Part shown: positions 1,185 through 63,484 of the stretch, in pieces
Numbering within the stretch: the first letter of the stretch is position 1
Layout of the letters: each line of letters starts with the position of its first letter
Source: Opitutaceae bacterium
GTDB taxonomy: Bacteria; Verrucomicrobiota; Verrucomicrobiia; Opitutales; Opitutaceae
Assembly (NCBI GenBank): GCA_030648295.1
Contig: JAUSID010000163.1
Span: 1 to 64,000 of the forward strand
Length of the DNA stretch: 64,000 nucleotides
Direction of reading: 5' to 3'
Position numbers and translations under genes: made by a program
The notes under the pieces: generated by a model
What the model was told of the DNA's origin: nothing
Databases searched by the model: none
The model's input: the letters and a program-made list of their open reading frames with translations, nothing else

Positions 1185-1534
1185 GTTGGAGCGGCGGTAA
1201 CGGACTCAGGACTGACGAACGCGGGGATGGTTTGGTGTCACGACTACGGCGCCAAATCTAATCATGGGCAACGGCGTCGGAGATTGCGTGTGGCACGGGC
1301 GTCCCGCCCGTGGGGAAGGGGTTGGTGTGGCATGGCGTCTCGCCCATGGAGTGCATTTCGATCTGCCAACATGGGCGGGACGCCCATGCCACGCCGGCAG
1401 GTCGCGAAACAATGACGAAATGCAAACATCACCGTAGCGGCGCGCCAGCCAGCCGATCGGCTGTGGTCGCGCTTCATCGACTCGCTGGCGCTCGTCGCTA
1501 CGACCAGTCTCTGCCGCTCGCACCTGCGAAGTCC
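1185..1534. repeat. pilB-pilC spacer with a palindromic repeat cluster
   Basis: No gene is seen in this 350-bp spacer. It holds three palindromic units of the GTGGCACGGGCGTCCCGCCC family at about 1290-1313, 1325-1349 and 1370-1392. Each can form a short GC-rich hairpin, and the outer units are inverted relative to each other. The same family recurs at 9712-9738, 32399-32489, 41510-41537 and, inside a gene, at 49635-49851. The rest of the spacer shows nothing recognisable. Confidence 0.8.
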
Positions 1535-4930: not shown

Positions 4931-4963
4931 GGAGCAGGGAGCAGGGAGCAGGGAGCAGGAAGC
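4931..4963. repeat. Heptamer array (GCAGGGA) in the pilT leader
   Basis: Four to five tandem copies of a 7-bp unit lie 25 bp upstream of the pilT ATG, CU-rich on the pilT mRNA. A short stretch of related sequence (TTCCTGCTCCC) occurs at about 60907-60925. Confidence 0.8.
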
Positions 4964-5034
4964 AAACCGCCACTGCTTCCTGTTCCTCTCACTCTACTCC
5001 GATGGGTTGATAGTTGGAAATAACTCACGGCGGG

Positions 5035-6798
5035 CTAGCTGGCGTCGCCGACGGTGATGGAGACGACCTCCTCGATCGTGGTCAAACCGGCGGTGACCTT
5101 GCGGGCGCCATCTTCACGCATCGTCCGCATGCCGAGCGAGCGCGCTTTCTCGCGCAGCTTGGCCGTGCCGACATTTTCATAAATCATTCGCTGCACTTCT
5201 TCGTTCACCACGAAGATTTCGAAAATGCCCATCCGGGCCCGGTAGCCGGTGGAGTTGCAATCGGCACAACCGTCGCCCTTCGCGAAGGTGGCGTGGGCGG
5301 CCTGCGCCGGGTTGATATTCAAGGCGCGGAGCTCCCTCGCGTCGGGGGTGTAGGACCGCTTGCACTTCAGGCAGATTTTCCGCACGAGCCGCTGCGCCAT
5401 TATCGCCCGCAGCGACGTCGAAACGAGGAACGGCTTCACGCCGATGTCGATCAAACGCGTGACCGCACCGGGCGCGTCGTTCGTGTGCAGGGTGGAGAAC
5501 ACCATGTGGCCGGTGAGCGACGCGTTGATCGCGATCTCCGCCGTCTCCAGGTCGCGGATTTCCCCCACCATGATGATGTTCGGCGCCTGGCGCAGCATGG
5601 CGCGAAGCGCGGACGCAAACGTCATGCCGACGTCATGGCGCACCGGCACCTGGTTGATGCCATTGAGCTGATATTCGACCGGGTCCTCGACGGTGATGAT
5701 TTTGCGGTCGGGCTTGTTGATGAAGTGGAGGCAGCCGTAGAGCGTGGTCGTCTTGCCGGAACCGGTCGGGCCGGTGACGAGCAGGATGCCATCGGGGAGG
5801 GTGATCAGTTTTTCGAACGTTGCCGCGTCGTCGGACAGGAACCCGAGTTCCGGCAGGCCGAGTTGCAGGCCCTCCTTGTCGAGAATACGCATCACGATGC
5901 TCTCGCCGTGGGCCGTCGGCAGCGATGACACGCGCAGGTCGAGTTGCTTGCCGTTCATCCCGATCTGAATGCGGCCGTCCTGCGGTATCCGTTTTTCGGC
6001 GATGCTGATGTTCGCCATGATCTTCAGCCGCGAAATAATCGACAGCTGGAGCCGCTTCGGCGGGTTCTCGACCTCCAGCAACACGCCGTCGATCCGGTAC
6101 CGGACGCGAAACCGTTTCTCGAGCGGCTCGATGTGGATGTCGGACGCCCGGCGCTGGATGGCCTCGAGGATAATCTGGTGGACGAGCTTGATGATCGGCG
6201 CGTCAGCTTCGGTGTTCGACACATCCGCGGCCGCATTCGCCTCGGTCGTTACGGCCGATGCATCCGCGCCCGTCCCGGAAAGATCGTTGAGCAGCTCGTC
6301 AATCGAGTTCGCGTCCTTGCCGTAGAATCGATCGATCGCGGCGGTGATTTCCTCCGGCGTCGCGACCACAGGCTCGAGCGGCATTTTTACGGTGTAGCCG
6401 AGCGCGTCGAGTCCATCAGTGTCGAGGGGATCGGCGATCGCCAGCCGCAGCTTGCCGCTCTCGCGGCTGAGCGGGACCACTTGATGCTTCGCCGCCAGCG
6501 CCCGTGGAATGAGTTCCAGCGCATCGCCGGTCACGCGAATGTTGGACAGGTCCGGCGCCATCGGCATGCCGAACTCGGTCGCGAGCAATTCGGCCACCTG
6601 CCGGCTGCTGATTGCGCCCTGTTGCGCGAGAACGTCGAGCACGTGAGGCGCGGGCTTCGCCGATTCGGCGTGGCCGGCGGCGATCGCTCGCGCCGCGTCG
6701 ACCTGCGCCGATTGCAACACGCCGCGGTCGACCGCCAATTGCAGGACAAAGTCGTCGGCCGCACTGGCGGCCGGCGATGGAACGGTGCTGGAATTCAT
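5035..6798 (-). CDS. GspE/PilB-family ATPase (copy 2)
   Basis: A 587-residue paralogue of the ATPase at 1535-3229. The N-terminal MshEN/GspE-N domain (about 15-165) is followed by an Ala/Thr/Asp-rich linker (165-200) and the motor. The motor shows Walker [13 protein letters not shown] (341-352), Asp box [13 protein letters not shown] (368-380), Walker [13 protein letters not shown] (407-418) and His box [14 protein letters not shown] (428-441). Cysteine pairs at C476/C479 and C511/C514 suit a zinc site. The ATG at 6798 (MNSSTVPSP) is chosen over an upstream start at 6873 because the extra 25 residues resemble no family N-terminus. A 128-bp gap separates it from pilT. Having two PilB-like motors around PilT could reflect subfunctionalisation or a second pilus. 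Family certain, precise role not. Confidence 0.9.
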
Positions 6799-6978
6799 CG
6801 CGGAGGGAAGTGCGTCAGGAAAGCGATTGACTGACGCACGGCGCAAGTGTTGTGGCCGGGCCGCTGGCTGCAAGGCAGCCGCGAAACGTATCTAATTCGC
6901 AACGAGCGTCCCTCGAAATCGCCTGCAAGCAGGCTCCTACCTCCTGGCAACCTGGTTTCATCTGGAACACGAAGGGAA

Positions 6979-9711: not shown

Positions 9712-9738
9712 TTACGTGGCATGGGCGTTCCGCCCATA
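9712..9738. repeat. Single palindromic repeat upstream of coaE
   Basis: One GTGGCATGGGCGTTCCGCCC-type unit immediately 5' of the coaE start codon, in the divergent spacer between coaE and the HD-domain gene. It could place a hairpin in the coaE leader. Confidence 0.7.
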
Positions 9739-32283: not shown

Positions 32284-32736
32284 CGGGCAGGGGAGCATGG
32301 GGGACGGGGAGTCTTGCGGAGGAAGCGCCGGCGGCGACCAAAAACTTCCCGGTAGCGCGGCTAAGGGCGCATCTCACTTTTCTGCACCGTGCGCAAAGTG
32401 GCACGGGCGTCCCGCCCGTGGACGGCGCTCCGCGCCGCAAACATGGGCGAGACGCCCATGCCACAACACGGGCAAGATGCTCGTGCCACGACGGGCGCAC
32501 ACGCGCTGTGCAAAAAACTGAGATGCGACCCGTGGCTAATTGATATCACGTCCCGAACACCATACCCATCCTGAGGCCGCGCGGTGGGCGGCCGTCGCGT
32601 TTACGACGGTGCCGGGCTGCGTCACGGGGCGGAGAGGCGTATTGGCGCAGGCCACCGTAGGCGTAGACCCGACCCAAAATCCCGTTGCCGCCGCGGAACC
32701 ATGTTTTCGCAGGGGGGACAGTGACCTTGTTCAACC
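32284..32736. repeat. Spacer with palindromic repeat cluster
   Basis: No gene is seen in this 453-bp divergent spacer. Three GTGGCACGGGCGTCCCGCCC / CATGGGCGAGACGCCCATG-type units lie at 32399-32489, followed by about 240 bp without recognisable structure. Confidence 0.7.
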
Positions 32737-41370: not shown

Positions 41371-41740
41371 GGAAAACCGGCAGAGTGGCAAGCCGGCGGG
41401 CCGAGTGGCAAGCCAGCGTTGCGCGAGTGCACCGGTCATTCGGGGTACTCAAGCGCGGGCGGGGCGGAAAGGGCGCATATCGGGGTTGCCGGTGCCTGGG
41501 TTCTGACGTGGCGCGGGCGGGACGCCCCTACCACGTCGACCGACAACTCGGAGATCCGCGCCTCCGGAGCGATCGACAAAATGAAGCTTGAGCCGCACGA
41601 CCGTCGGGACAAGGAACACGCCAACAACGGCCGGGTTTGGCTGTTGGGATTCGGCGCCTTTCGGGTGCAGTGTTTGATCGAGGCGCGAAAGAACCCGGTC
41701 GACTTCCAGCCACCTCATTCAGGAGCAATAACGAACAACG
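41371..41740. other. Divergent spacer with one palindromic unit
   Basis: 370 bp between leuB and the TIM-barrel gene. One GTGGCGCGGGCGGGACGCCC-type palindrome at 41510-41537. An AGGAG at 41717-41721 lies 19 nt before the downstream ATG, too far for a normal Shine-Dalgarno. Nothing else is recognised. Confidence 0.55.
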
Positions 41741-47302: not shown

Positions 47303-48985
47303 GTGAAGACCTTCTACATCACCACGGCCATCGACTATGTGAACGGCGCGCCGCACCTCGGGCATGCGTACGAAAAGGTGCTGACCGATGTCATCGCGCG
47401 TTTTCGCCGGCAGATGGGCGACCGCGTTCATTTTGTCACCGGGACCGACGAGCACGGGCAAAAGGTGCAGGCCAGCGCCCGCAAGGAAGGCATCGAGCCG
47501 CAGGCGTATGTCGACAAGACGTCGGCGGAATTTCGCGCGCTGTATGATCGCCTCGCCGTTTCCTACGACGACTTCATTCGCACCACGGAACCGCGGCACA
47601 AGAAAGTGGTGCGCGAGATTCTGCAGCGGCTGTTCGACCAGGGAGAAATCTACCAGGACGAATATCGCGGCTTCTACAGCACGCGGCAGGAGCAATTCCT
47701 CCAGGAAAAGGACCGGCTGCCGGACGGTTCGTGGCCGGAAATCTTCGGCGAGGTCACGCAGATCATGGAGAAGAATTATTTCTTCCGGCTGCGCAAATAC
47801 CAGGATTGGCTGATCGACTATCTCCGCACGCACGAGGATTTCGTCTTCCCCAAATACCGCCAGAAGCAGGTGCTGGAGTTCCTGAAGGAGCCGCTCAACG
47901 ACCTTTGCATTTCGCGGCCAAAGGAGCGGCTGGAGTGGGGGATCTCGCTGCCGTTCGACGAGAAGTACGTCACCTATGTCTGGTTCGACGCCCTGTTGAA
48001 TTACTACTCCGCGGTGGCAGACAAGGGATTGTGGCCGGCGGACTTCAATCTCATCGGCAAGGACATCCTCGTGCCGCCGCATGCGGTGTATTGGCCAATC
48101 ATGCTGCATGCCGCGGGGCTGCCTCCGCCGAAAGCCCTGCTCGTGCACGGCTGGTGGCTGCAAAGCGGGGCGAAGATGTCGAAGAGCACGGGAGTCGCGA
48201 CCAATCCCCTCGACCTCGTGGATCAGTTCGGCGTGGACGCGTTCAGATATTTTCTGATTCGCGAGATGAACGTCGGCCAGGACAGCGAGTTCACGGTCGA
48301 GCAATTCCTCGTCCGCTACAACAGCGAGCTCGCGAACAACCTCGGCAACCTCGTGAACCGGACGTTGAACATGACGACGCGGTTTGCCGGCGGAGTCGTG
48401 CCGGCGGCAGGTGAAAACGAGGATCTCGAGCGGGCGCTCCAGAGCCTGTGGCTCGGCACGCGCGACGAGGCGATCGCGTTGTGCGAGCGATTCCAGTTTC
48501 ACACCGCGCTCGAGCGCGCGATGGTTTTTCTGACCGAGACGAATGCGTACATCGAGAAACGTGCGCCGTGGAGGCTCGCGAAGTCGGCCGACGCGAAGGA
48601 CCAGGCCTTGTTGCGCACGTCGCTCGCGACGATGGCGGAGGCGCTCCGGCTTGCGGTCGCCTTGATCCAGCACGTGACTCCGGCGACCACCGTGAAAATC
48701 AACTCCGTCCTCGACTACACGCCCGGCGCGATCTGGCGCGACGAACTGGAGTGGGGCGGCAAACTCGCCGGCCGGAAAGTCGCGCCCGCGCTGGTGCTGT
48801 TTCCGCGGCCGGCGGCGGAGGCGGGAGGGCAGGCGTCAGAGGTCAGAGGTCAGAAGTCAGCGGGCGGAAAACAGAAGCCAGAAGCCAGAGGACAGACAAC
48901 AGATGTCAGAGGTCAGACGTCAGAGGTCAGAGACGAGAAGTCGGGCGCGACAGATCCGAAACCAAAGGCCGGACCGCCGTCCTGA
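47303..48985 (+). CDS. metG: Methionyl-tRNA synthetase with repeat-derived C-terminal tail
   Basis: 560 residues with GTG start (VKTFYITTAIDYVNGAPHLG). Class I signatures are PHLGHAYEKV (HIGH variant) and GAKMSKSTGVATNP (KMSKS). The zinc-knuckle region reads YRGFYSTRQEQFLQEKDRL with no cysteines, so it is a zinc-less type. The conserved anticodon-binding part ends near residue 508 (KVAPALVLFPRP). Residues about 512-545 are translated from GTCAGAG-type heptamers (SEVRGQKS, TDVRGQTSEVRDEKS), so the tail is dispensable, low-complexity sequence. No C-terminal tRNA-binding (EMAP-like) domain is present. A TTG at 47252 would add 17 unconserved residues. Confidence 0.95.
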   Translation: MKTFYITTAIDYVNGAPHLGHAYEKVLTDVIARFRRQMGDRVHFVTGTDEHGQKVQASARKEGIEPQAYVDKTSAEFRALYDRLAVSYDDFIRTTEPRHKKVVREILQRLFDQGEIYQDEYRGFYSTRQEQFLQEKDRLPDGSWPEIFGEVTQIMEKNYFFRLRKYQDWLIDYLRTHEDFVFPKYRQKQVLEFLKEPLNDLCISRPKERLEWGISLPFDEKYVTYVWFDALLNYYSAVADKGLWPADFNLIGKDILVPPHAVYWPIMLHAAGLPPPKALLVHGWWLQSGAKMSKSTGVATNPLDLVDQFGVDAFRYFLIREMNVGQDSEFTVEQFLVRYNSELANNLGNLVNRTLNMTTRFAGGVVPAAGENEDLERALQSLWLGTRDEAIALCERFQFHTALERAMVFLTETNAYIEKRAPWRLAKSADAKDQALLRTSLATMAEALRLAVALIQHVTPATTVKINSVLDYTPGAIWRDELEWGGKLAGRKVAPALVLFPRPAAEAGGQASEVRGQKSAGGKQKPEARGQTTDVRGQTSEVRDEKSGATDPKPKAGPPS

Positions 48986-49054: not shown

Positions 49055-50695
49055 GTGACCATCCTGCCGCTTAATCTTGCGACGAATGCCACGCCGGAGG
49101 CGTTGCTGGCATTTTTGGGCGAATGCCGCGCCGGAGCGGTTCGCGACGGCCATCCAAAGCTCGTCAGCATTTCGCTGGCGGTGGACGCGCTCGATCCGCT
49201 GGCGGTGCTCGAATCAATCTTCGAGCCGGACGAGCCGCATTTCTACGCGGAGCGGCCCTCGCTCGAGAGCGCGATTGCCGGCGCGGAAATCGCGACCGCC
49301 CACGAAGCGAGCGGAGCCGCGCGGTTCGCGTCCGTTCAACGGTGGATCGATCAGACGCTAGCGCACACGATCGCGGTCGGCGACGTTGAGGCACCGTTTG
49401 GCGGACCGCATTTTTTTGCGGGATTCACGTTTAGCGACGAGGTCGATCCGGGTGAGCCGTTCCCGCCGGCATTTGCCTTCGTGCCGCGCTGGCAGGTGTC
49501 GCTTGCCGGCACGACCACGACCGCGGTGGCAAACCTGCTCGTCACCGCGGACGCGGATGTCGCCGTTCAGGCGGAGCGGGTCTGGCGCGCGCACGCCAAG
49601 TTCCGGCATTTCGAATATGCCGGTGGCGGTGAAAGTGGCACGGGTGGCTTGAGTGGCACGGACGTCCCGGCCGTGATGCCCGGGATTGGGAGTGGCACGG
49701 GCGTCCCGCCCGTGATCTCCGGCATGGGCGGGACGTCCATGCCACATTCGGTCCAACATGGGCGGGACGCCCATGCCGCGACGAACACCAATCAAGAACA
49801 CGCGCGAGACGCCCGCGCTACTTCAGAACATGGGCGGGACGCCCATGCCACGGCGGAGCGGCAGGCGAAGGCAACGTTCACGACGCGGGAGGCTGGCGAT
49901 TACCGCGCGGCGGTGGCACGGGCGCTGGAACTGATCTCGGTCGGTGAACTCAACAAGATCGTGCTTGCGCGCGCGCAGGACCTCACGGCCAGTCAACCGT
50001 TACACCCGCTGCGAATGCTGAACGGGCTGCGGCAGCGGTTCCCGGATTGCTACGCGTTTTCCCTGGCCCACGGTCGCGGCCGGAGCTTTATCGGCGCGAG
50101 CCCGGAACGGCTCGTCCGCGTCAGCCGCGGCTCGGTCGAAACCGAGGCGCTCGCAGGCTCGATGCGCCGCGGCGCGACGGCAAGCGAGGATGCGGCGTTG
50201 GCGGCGGCACTGCTGCGCAGCGAGAAGGACGTCCGCGAACATCGGGAGGTGATCGACGACATCGTCGCGCGTCTGAAACCACTCGGGTTGCAACTCGAGT
50301 ACGCCGAACAGCCACAATTGCGCCGGCTGGCCAACGTGCAGCACCTGCACACGCCCGTGCGCGCGGCGCTGCCCGAGGGCGTCCGGCTGCTCGACATCGT
50401 CGCCGCGATGCATCCAACGCCGGCGGTCGGCGGCAACCCGCGGCAGTCTGCGGTGGCGCGGATTCGCGAGCTCGAGGGATTCGCCCGCGGACTCTATGCC
50501 GGCGCACTGGGCTGGCTGAATGCACGGGGGGGTGGGGAATTCTTCGTCGGCATCCGCTCGGCGTTGGTAGAGGGCGCCAGCGCGCGTGTTTTCGCCGGCG
50601 CCGGCATTGTCGCGGGCTCGACGCCGGAAAAGGAATTTGCGGAGACGGAACTGAAGTTTAAGGCGATGCTCGAAGCGCTTGTCGGCCAGGAGTGA
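49055..50695 (+). CDS. menF: Isochorismate synthase MenF with a repeat-encoded internal insert
   Basis: 546 residues with GTG start (MTILPLNLATNATPEALLAF). It converts chorismate to isochorismate, the entry to menaquinone. The chorismate-binding domain (about 270-545) shows GDYRAAVARALELISVGELN, KIVLARAQDL, FIGASPERLVRVSRG, VETEALAGSMRRG, LHTPVRAALP, HPTPAVGGNPRQSAV and the C-terminal FVGIRSALVEG and FAGAGIVAGSTPEKE. Residues about 191-268 are translated palindromic repeats (GTGVPPVISGMGG, HGRDAHAAT, HARDARATSEHGRDAHAT) and separate the N-terminal half from the active-site domain. Without them the length would be near 468, close to ordinary MenF. Reading frame and motifs are intact on both sides. 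menD follows on the same strand. Confidence 0.93.
   Translation: MTILPLNLATNATPEALLAFLGECRAGAVRDGHPKLVSISLAVDALDPLAVLESIFEPDEPHFYAERPSLESAIAGAEIATAHEASGAARFASVQRWIDQTLAHTIAVGDVEAPFGGPHFFAGFTFSDEVDPGEPFPPAFAFVPRWQVSLAGTTTTAVANLLVTADADVAVQAERVWRAHAKFRHFEYAGGGESGTGGLSGTDVPAVMPGIGSGTGVPPVISGMGGTSMPHSVQHGRDAHAATNTNQEHARDARATSEHGRDAHATAERQAKATFTTREAGDYRAAVARALELISVGELNKIVLARAQDLTASQPLHPLRMLNGLRQRFPDCYAFSLAHGRGRSFIGASPERLVRVSRGSVETEALAGSMRRGATASEDAALAAALLRSEKDVREHREVIDDIVARLKPLGLQLEYAEQPQLRRLANVQHLHTPVRAALPEGVRLLDIVAAMHPTPAVGGNPRQSAVARIRELEGFARGLYAGALGWLNARGGGEFFVGIRSALVEGASARVFAGAGIVAGSTPEKEFAETELKFKAMLEALVGQE
49635..49851. repeat. Cluster of palindromic repeats inside the menF reading frame
   Basis: About seven units of the GTGGCACGGGCGTCCCGCCC / CATGGGCGGGACGCCCATG family with diverged spacers, plus one CGCGAGACGCCCGCG unit of the sister family, all read in frame. 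The same family is otherwise intergenic in this window (1290, 9712, 32399, 41510). Confidence 0.9.
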
Positions 50696-52767: not shown

Positions 52768-52832
52768 CCCGGGAGCGCGGGCGTCTCGCCCGCATTGCTC
52801 CGCTTGCGCGCCAGAGGCCCGCGCCCCGAGGC
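52768..52832. repeat. Palindromic pair between convergent menD and kup
   Basis: GGGAGCGCGGGCGTCTCGCC unit (52768-52794) with a diverged inverted partner (52807-52832). The position between two convergent stops suits a terminator role. Confidence 0.7.
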
Positions 52833-55698: not shown

Positions 55699-55857
55699 CC
55701 CTGGGAGCGCGGGCGTCCCGCCCGCCACTGCATTTCGGATTGCGGATTGCGGATTTCGGATTGGCGAGCCGGCGAGTGCTGAACGCGCCGGCTAAACAGT
55801 TCGGGTGAGTCGTCGCGCTCGGCGGCCGAATTAAATCCGCAATCTGAAATCCGCAAT
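55699..55857. repeat. Repeat-filled spacer between convergent menB and the HupE-like gene
   Basis: A single GGGAGCGCGGGCGTCCCGCC unit (55699-55726) is followed by CGGATTG-type heptamers (55736-55761) and their inverted copy (AATCCGCAATCTGAAATCC, 55831-55857). The latter two could pair as a stem around the spacer. No gene. Confidence 0.75.
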
Positions 55858-63408: not shown

Positions 63409-63484
63409 CCCTGGGAGCGCGGGCGTCCCGCCCGCAATGAAAAAAGAGACTACAGTGGCGGACAGGATGCCCGCGCTCCCGGGG
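63409..63484. repeat. Palindromic pair between convergent glpK and the kelch gene
   Basis: GGGAGCGCGGGCGTCCCGCC unit (63409-63439) and inverted partner (63457-63484) with an A-rich loop. Possible terminator for both genes. Confidence 0.75.

Follow-up and report, generated by a model that had tools for sequence, protein, structure and literature searches.

An in-frame REP array in the menF linker of an Opitutaceae bacterium, and RAYT transposases nested in frame in menF and other genes of Verrucomicrobiota

The isochorismate synthase gene menF, of the vitamin K pathway, carries in an Opitutaceae bacterium an array of short palindromic repeats within its open frame, and in six relatives the same linker of MenF holds a whole transposase gene of the RAYT type. 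In the window, by which we mean the entire stretch of 64,000 nt analysed here, the insert is very probably a GTGG-tagged REP array that has settled in a flexible and variable linker between the N-terminal part of MenF and its chorismate-binding domain, and from the sequence we infer that the array is translated. Transposable DNA usually breaks genes; here the frame is kept, and mobile DNA would turn into a protein linker and a protein domain.

The preliminary description of this DNA had placed some seven palindromic repeats inside the menF frame, and its account of the locus holds: at 49635-49851 we located six copies, plus half of a seventh, of a mobile, 23-nt, GTGG-tagged REP unit, in a frame that remains open over 546 aa. 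The half copy and two copies run forward, followed by four in reverse (Table 1), and together they make up most of the 85-residue MenF linker. The two variants of the REP unit that were tried are free of stop codons in all six frames; a copy that keeps the overall length divisible by three can therefore be read without interruption. Folded as single-stranded DNA, the array reaches -71.5 kcal/mol (z = -5.83).

Table 1. Coordinates of menF, its parts and the REP copies in the window
Feature	Position	Strand	Remarks
menF (isochorismate synthase)	49055..50695	+	single open frame, 546 aa; TIGR00543, PF00425
MenF N-terminal domain, residues 1-189	49055..49621	+	matched in the 105 loci with both ends readable
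REP-laden linker, 85 aa, residues 190-274	49622..49876	+	mostly predicted disordered
REP tag and half stem (partial copy)	49635..49646	+	family D3
REP copy, stem variant	49653..49675	+	forward
REP copy, exact consensus	49692..49714	+	forward
REP copy	49723..49745	-	reverse
REP copy	49757..49779	-	reverse
REP copy, degenerate	49799..49821	-	reverse; 66% of reference copy
REP copy, exact consensus	49829..49851	-	reverse
MenF catalytic (chorismate-binding) part	49877..50692	+	PF00425
Inverted REP pair outside menF	1290..1392	+	1290-1312 forward, 1370-1392 reverse; not flagged intragenic
REP copy outside menF	9716..9738	+	two core differences
Inverted REP pair outside menF	32398..32464	+	32398-32420 forward, 32442-32464 reverse; not flagged intragenic
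Degenerate REP-like copy	41508..41534	-	read directly

The repeat unit in menF is a GTGG-tagged REP. In the genome to which the window belongs (G000; 9.12 Mb, 294 contigs, 96.6% complete), the REP core with up to three mismatches yields 147 matches against 2 for a reversed-pattern control; the core together with the other main variant yields 209 (control 1), the widest count, and a third, stricter pattern 179. The consensus, derived from 174 copies in 103 clusters, reads GTGG then CAYGGGCRTCYYGCCCRTG, with the tag conserved at 94-97% per base and present on one side of the hairpin only (174 copies with flanks). The stem covaries, with 37 double-sided compensatory cells among 60 distinct cores, compared with 12.9 on average and at most 24 in 500 shuffles, which ignore relatedness. 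Nearly half of the clusters (49/103) contain two to four copies, and 20 of 31 pairs are arranged forward-reverse. The nucleotide identity between the menF repeats and copies outside menF, on which the preliminary description had relied, is exact at 1290 and 32398, whereas the copy at 9716 has two core differences and that at 41508 is degenerate (Table 1); none of the REP clusters of the window beyond menF was flagged as intragenic in the census described below. Another hairpin-like family, tagged GGAG (for example, GGAGCGCGGGCGTCCCGCCCGCA) and distinct from the GTGG REP, occurs at 52772-52794, 55704-55726 and 63414-63436, the last copy having an inverted partner close by.

Both sides of MenF proved intact, as the preliminary description had claimed. 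TIGR00543 matches the protein with 332 bits (cut-off 224.75) and PF00425 (Chorismate_bind) matches residues 282-534 with 264 bits, also above its cut-off, both halves fitting isochorismate synthase and chorismate-binding models; the MenF equivalog models score below their own cut-offs. AlphaFold2, run on 41 sequences, models the window MenF with a mean pLDDT of 84.5. Ten-residue blocks of the N-terminal domain mostly reach a pLDDT of at least 85, and residues 188-268, between a helix (169-184) and a strand (275-279), fall below 50 and are predicted to be disordered, the remainder being confident. Every PDB match begins at residue 251 or later.

Were menF a decaying pseudogene, the REPs would simply have landed in dead DNA, and several observations agree with that: most REP clusters in G000 lie outside genes, other chorismate-binding paralogues (33-35% identity) exist in the same genome, and in one REP-carrying relative, G229, MenF is split over two frames. 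In the latter (L220), the N-terminal half is in a different frame from the linker and the catalytic part, which may represent a frameshift, a pseudogene or an assembly error, so that not every REP carrier is intact. Against decay, however, stand the open 546-codon frame, 114 invariant columns in the alignment of the window MenF with 40 relatives, the score well above the TIGR00543 cut-off, and the fact that the linker is in frame in all remaining REP or RAYT carriers that are readable at both ends. We therefore regard a menF pseudogene as very improbable. An assembly or frame error is also unlikely, given the open frame, the in-frame REP-RAYT menF genes of G031 and G232 (assemblies of 2 and 3 contigs) and, beyond menF, a RAYT in IspG of the one-contig genome G559.

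We next consider REPs in other genes of G000. An intragenic census of 174 copies (fewer than the widest count of 209), which used a GC3 rule of our own making, returned 13 frames that span REPs, at 11 of the 103 clusters. Pfam-supported hosts are present at seven of these 103 clusters, REPs otherwise being mostly outside genes; they are menF, an ABC-F-like ATPase, the helicase HrpB, a GT9/GT2 protein, PurL, a solute-binding protein and a response-regulator protein. No Pfam match was obtained for one further long frame of the census, L259 (1138 aa), or for the short frames L003, L008 and L267. The HrpB linker served as a control: sought in the 26 REP-rich genomes defined below and read in 24, it contains clear REP peptides in four (G000, G001, G031 and G232) and, judging by eye, remnant-like strings in G028, G111, G113 and G139. 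Several sites are thus permissive, the menF linker among them, and the idea that menF is the sole hot spot is ruled out by this control.

Comparison with relatives shows how variable the MenF linker is. Of 110 loci, 105 had both ends of MenF readable, which after removal of duplicates and addition of the window and G001 gave 87 rows. In 74 of these the linker is 10-34 aa long and contains neither repeat type; the other 13 comprise four rows with REP peptides, three with a RAYT and six with a different string of the GVPSPR type. As the preliminary description had anticipated, the insert is missing or different in most relatives, and its residues, which differ across the 87 rows, are not an old conserved feature of MenF. 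In L034, L035, L038 and L085, another, longer palindrome (GVPSPR...GEGTPP or similar) occupies the same linker in frame and folds as a long, near-perfect hairpin; the GVPSPR-type linkers of L039 and L043 fold less well. On the MenF tree, the seven rows with REP or RAYT require at least seven changes, and their constraint to a single clade is rejected (p 8e-11), so that inserts apparently entered the linker more than once.

Among 252 genomes of the family, 80 contain any REP copy by the stricter pattern, and 26 contain at least 17 copies, including G000 (179) and all six genomes with a RAYT in menF (17-126). These 26 REP-rich genomes divide into six with a RAYT in menF, seven with a REP-only linker (G000, G115, G139, G229, G231, G242 and G243, some judged by eye), two with a remnant-like linker (G028 and G111, by eye), six with none, and five in which MenF is absent or present as a fragment only. 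A RAYT in menF is thus found in 6 of 26 REP-rich genomes versus none of the 226 others, for which the Fisher p of 6.9e-7 is descriptive because the 17-copy threshold was chosen after the counts were known. In the genera g1, g46 and g65, species with a nested RAYT and species with a REP-only linker occur side by side.

That several species carry the array at the same linker, and that it folds very stably, would also be expected if the array had a selected role in MenF, such as mRNA regulation via hairpins, enzyme localisation or the timing of folding. In related species, however, the array is absent or replaced by the other palindrome family, the linker peptides vary in both reading frame and sequence, and the HrpB linker exhibits the same recurrence, so that tolerance of the site explains what is seen at menF. 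We hold out very little probability for such a role, and retain the reading of a REP array lodged in a tolerant linker.

The search for RAYTs in the 252 family genomes (E <= 1e-20) placed six of its seven best matches inside menF, in frames of 800 aa (G031), 770 aa (G112), 724 aa (G066), 707 aa (G114), 833 aa (G232) and 443 aa (G001, at a contig end). A contig from Opitutia fen_1467 (L105, PLMW01000075.1), identical in sequence to that of G114, presents a 704-aa menF frame with a whole RAYT between REPs. Five of the frames lead from the MenF N-terminal part through the RAYT to the catalytic part without a stop; in G001 the contig ends early, and the N side alone is visible on it. As the search was unselected for frame, the finding that all five readable RAYTs share both the frame and the strand of menF counts as five of five. 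The NHVH motif and the tyrosine motif (Y...NP) are present in all six. PF01797 exceeds its cut-off in all four menF fusions scanned, and NF047646 (cut-off 80) gives 78.8 bits for the RAYT part of L139, 74.1 for the whole of L139 and 79.5 for L105. Codon differences between the menF RAYTs amount to 0.52-0.65 at third positions and 0.16-0.39 at first and second positions, and from this excess of third-position change the RAYT protein looks constrained. In the AlphaFold2 model of the L105 fusion, MenF is confident and the RAYT part, which is one sequence deep, is weak.

Each of the six menF RAYTs is flanked by REP-cluster sequence in direct repeat, the repeats being 26-196 nt long and 88-98% identical. 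The period of the best repeat pair is divisible by three at each of the six loci, so that recombination between the repeats would delete the RAYT and keep the frame; G031 has two additional repeat pairs with periods not divisible by three.

The RAYTs in menF could descend from a single ancient insertion that was passed on by vertical descent, with many later losses of which REP scars remain. Indeed, they form one clade in a 15-row tree (92/96), and the RAYT data are compatible with the MenF topology (AU p 0.195). In a 54-row tree, however, the G232 RAYT stands apart and non-menF RAYTs are intermixed, with several weak forks, and since the clade is lost there we do not claim one origin. Across the six fusions, RAYT and MenF identities are uncorrelated (rho -0.17), which speaks against simple shared descent of one insertion, and GC3 differs between RAYT (0.55-0.73) and MenF (0.73-0.89). 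The RAYT topology is marginally rejected by the MenF data (p 0.043), both topology tests being weak, and grouping of the three menF-RAYT rows into one clade of the MenF tree is rejected (p 1e-74), so that many losses would be needed. Overall, a single ancient insertion appears rather unlikely.

Nested RAYTs are found elsewhere in the phylum. A search of 387 Verrucomicrobiota genomes (E <= 1e-40), which has three genomes with matches in common with the family search, yielded 44 RAYT matches, of which 27 lie in frames of at least 500 aa, five in frames of 390-499 aa and 12 in shorter ones; in the family search, frames of at least 500 aa enclose 12 of 96 matches. By themselves, long frames constitute weak evidence in GC-rich DNA, as exemplified by L172 and L207, where frames of 519-565 aa close no more than 45 codons from the RAYT. 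Since frame length proves little, Pfam was run on some of the RAYT frames: seven non-menF and two menF frames from the first searches, and 10 of the 14 loci obtained from the phylum search. Several hosts have protein domains on both sides of the RAYT. In MetH (L347), the Met_synt_B12 domain is split in frame, with positions 2-117 before the RAYT and 119-273 after it, and in IspG/GcpE (L349), likewise split in frame, positions 1-244 precede and 197-342 follow; in L349 the RAYT call is based on 49% identity over the query, Y1_Tnp being unreported by Pfam. A second IspG/GcpE locus, L351, shows positions 206-342 after the RAYT. HsdR (L160) has HSDR_N before and SWI2_SNF2 after the RAYT, in frame, and a double creatininase (L206 and L157) has one domain on each side, also in frame. 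In L211 (121-2892), the RAYT lies within a CARF-like and adenosine deaminase protein (Cas_NE0113, A_deaminase), possibly a defence protein, with host domains on both sides.

In L202, L344, L345 and L350, Eco57I-type methylase matches for the most part follow the RAYT, which is preceded by long open frames. B12-radical-SAM domains (L348, L352) and an FAD oxidoreductase (L342) precede the RAYT, with no Pfam match after; the RAYT occupies one end of the frame in L341 (TatD) and L199 (DUF1638), and L159 gave no host match in Pfam. Restriction-modification genes recur among the hosts, as the four Eco57I-type loci and HsdR of L160 illustrate.

To 54 of 70 loci, those covering enough of the query, a fixed rule was applied, and it scored 19 RAYTs as nested on both sides, to which that of G001 was added by hand. 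The nested and stand-alone states require at least 12 changes on the 54-row tree. Direct repeats also flank most stand-alone RAYTs. The period of the best pair is divisible by three in 13 of the 16 nested loci that have a repeat versus 12 of 31 stand-alone ones (p 0.007, hand-counted); four nested loci in which no repeat was detected are outside the 16, and of two contig-cut loci, L184 was placed by hand with the nested and L353 was kept with the stand-alone ones.

These patterns suggest a way of life which we propose tentatively, as quite possible though somewhat short of probable. RAYTs of Verrucomicrobiota would live in the frames of household genes, stop-free between translated direct-repeat REPs, and would be made only as a domain of a MenF-, MetH- or IspG-type protein; the need of the host for an open frame would protect the transposase against decay, and recombination would offer a harmless exit that leaves REP-only linkers. 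REPs may have arrived in the menF linker by RAYT-driven single-strand transposition or by recombination between REPs, selection keeping the in-frame arrivals alone, and the disordered loop would spare the enzyme core, leaving the array neutral for MenF. By conjecture, the linker of the window could be an emptied state, in which recombination between REP repeats removed a RAYT; no RAYT relic is visible in it, however. In the window genome, no RAYT resembling those in menF reached E <= 1e-20, two partial matches of low significance (E 1e-6 and 3e-4) have no REP nearby, and none of 11 Y1_Tnp places has a GTGG REP in the 1.7-3.4 kb of flank covered. A cognate REP-flanked RAYT, present in the six relatives, was thus not found in this assembly at its 96.6% completeness.

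Inteins with homing endonucleases also place a mobility protein in frame inside a conserved gene; the flanks of nested RAYTs, in distinction, are in-frame REPs, and the proposal, if true, would describe an intein-like way of life minus the splicing. It would suggest a testable answer to how RAYTs persist, namely by hiding in a frame that the host cannot lose. The nested loci share with REPtrons and REPINs a REP-flanked RAYT that has the HuH and Tyr motifs; they differ in that, wherever the locus is readable throughout, the RAYT lacks a stop codon and its frame connects one part of the host protein to another. The repeatedly filled linkers of menF and hrpB constitute a natural experiment on insertion-tolerant loops.

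The menF array itself is of a kind already known, and from the same phylum. The preliminary description had named the Rickettsia RPE family as the only precedent, which does not stand: the main text of Di Nocera et al. (PMC3733652) reported in 2013 REPs inside ORFs, most often in Opitutus terrae (Verrucomicrobia), and in-frame ERIC, YPAL and Correia elements are among those covered in the review PMC2229807, with in-frame elements of other kinds in PMC10969869. Opitutus terrae has GTGG- as well as GTAG-tagged REPs, which occur as single, dimeric or grouped hairpins in ORFs such as uvrA, DNA ligase and RNA helicases, much as in our case; that main text differs in mentioning neither menF nor isochorismate and in describing REPs in ORFs, with no in-frame nested RAYT (PMC3733652). 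A cognate RAYT in the same genome is described there as usual and sometimes missing. RPEs resemble the array as in-frame palindromes in conserved genes, with a gmk case that is translated and active, and differ in their length of 105-146 bp (PMC2229807) and in the CGTC at one end in R. conorii; the REP of the window has a unit of about 23 nt and a GTGG tag, relatives carry RAYTs, and it does not qualify as an RPE. Our literature searches, made on titles and the openings of abstracts and with most subscription papers and all supplements out of reach, found no account of RAYTs nested in frame in host genes, and as far as they extend such nested transposases are undescribed. A few unexpectedly long members were discarded as fusions or annotation errors in an earlier study (PMC6006769); long “fusions” with Y1 transposases are not necessarily errors.

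Two further cases of repeats running into genes were noted on contigs that bear menF. On the L105 contig, MenD (4958-6844) contains an in-frame REP pair (GTGVPPV...MGKMPMP). In the window, the reading frame at the C-terminus of metG (48830-48985) traverses a series of short CAGAGGT/CAGAAGT-like repeats (SEVRGQ, PEARGQ), and TCTGACATC repeats related to these carry on into the gap between metG and menF.
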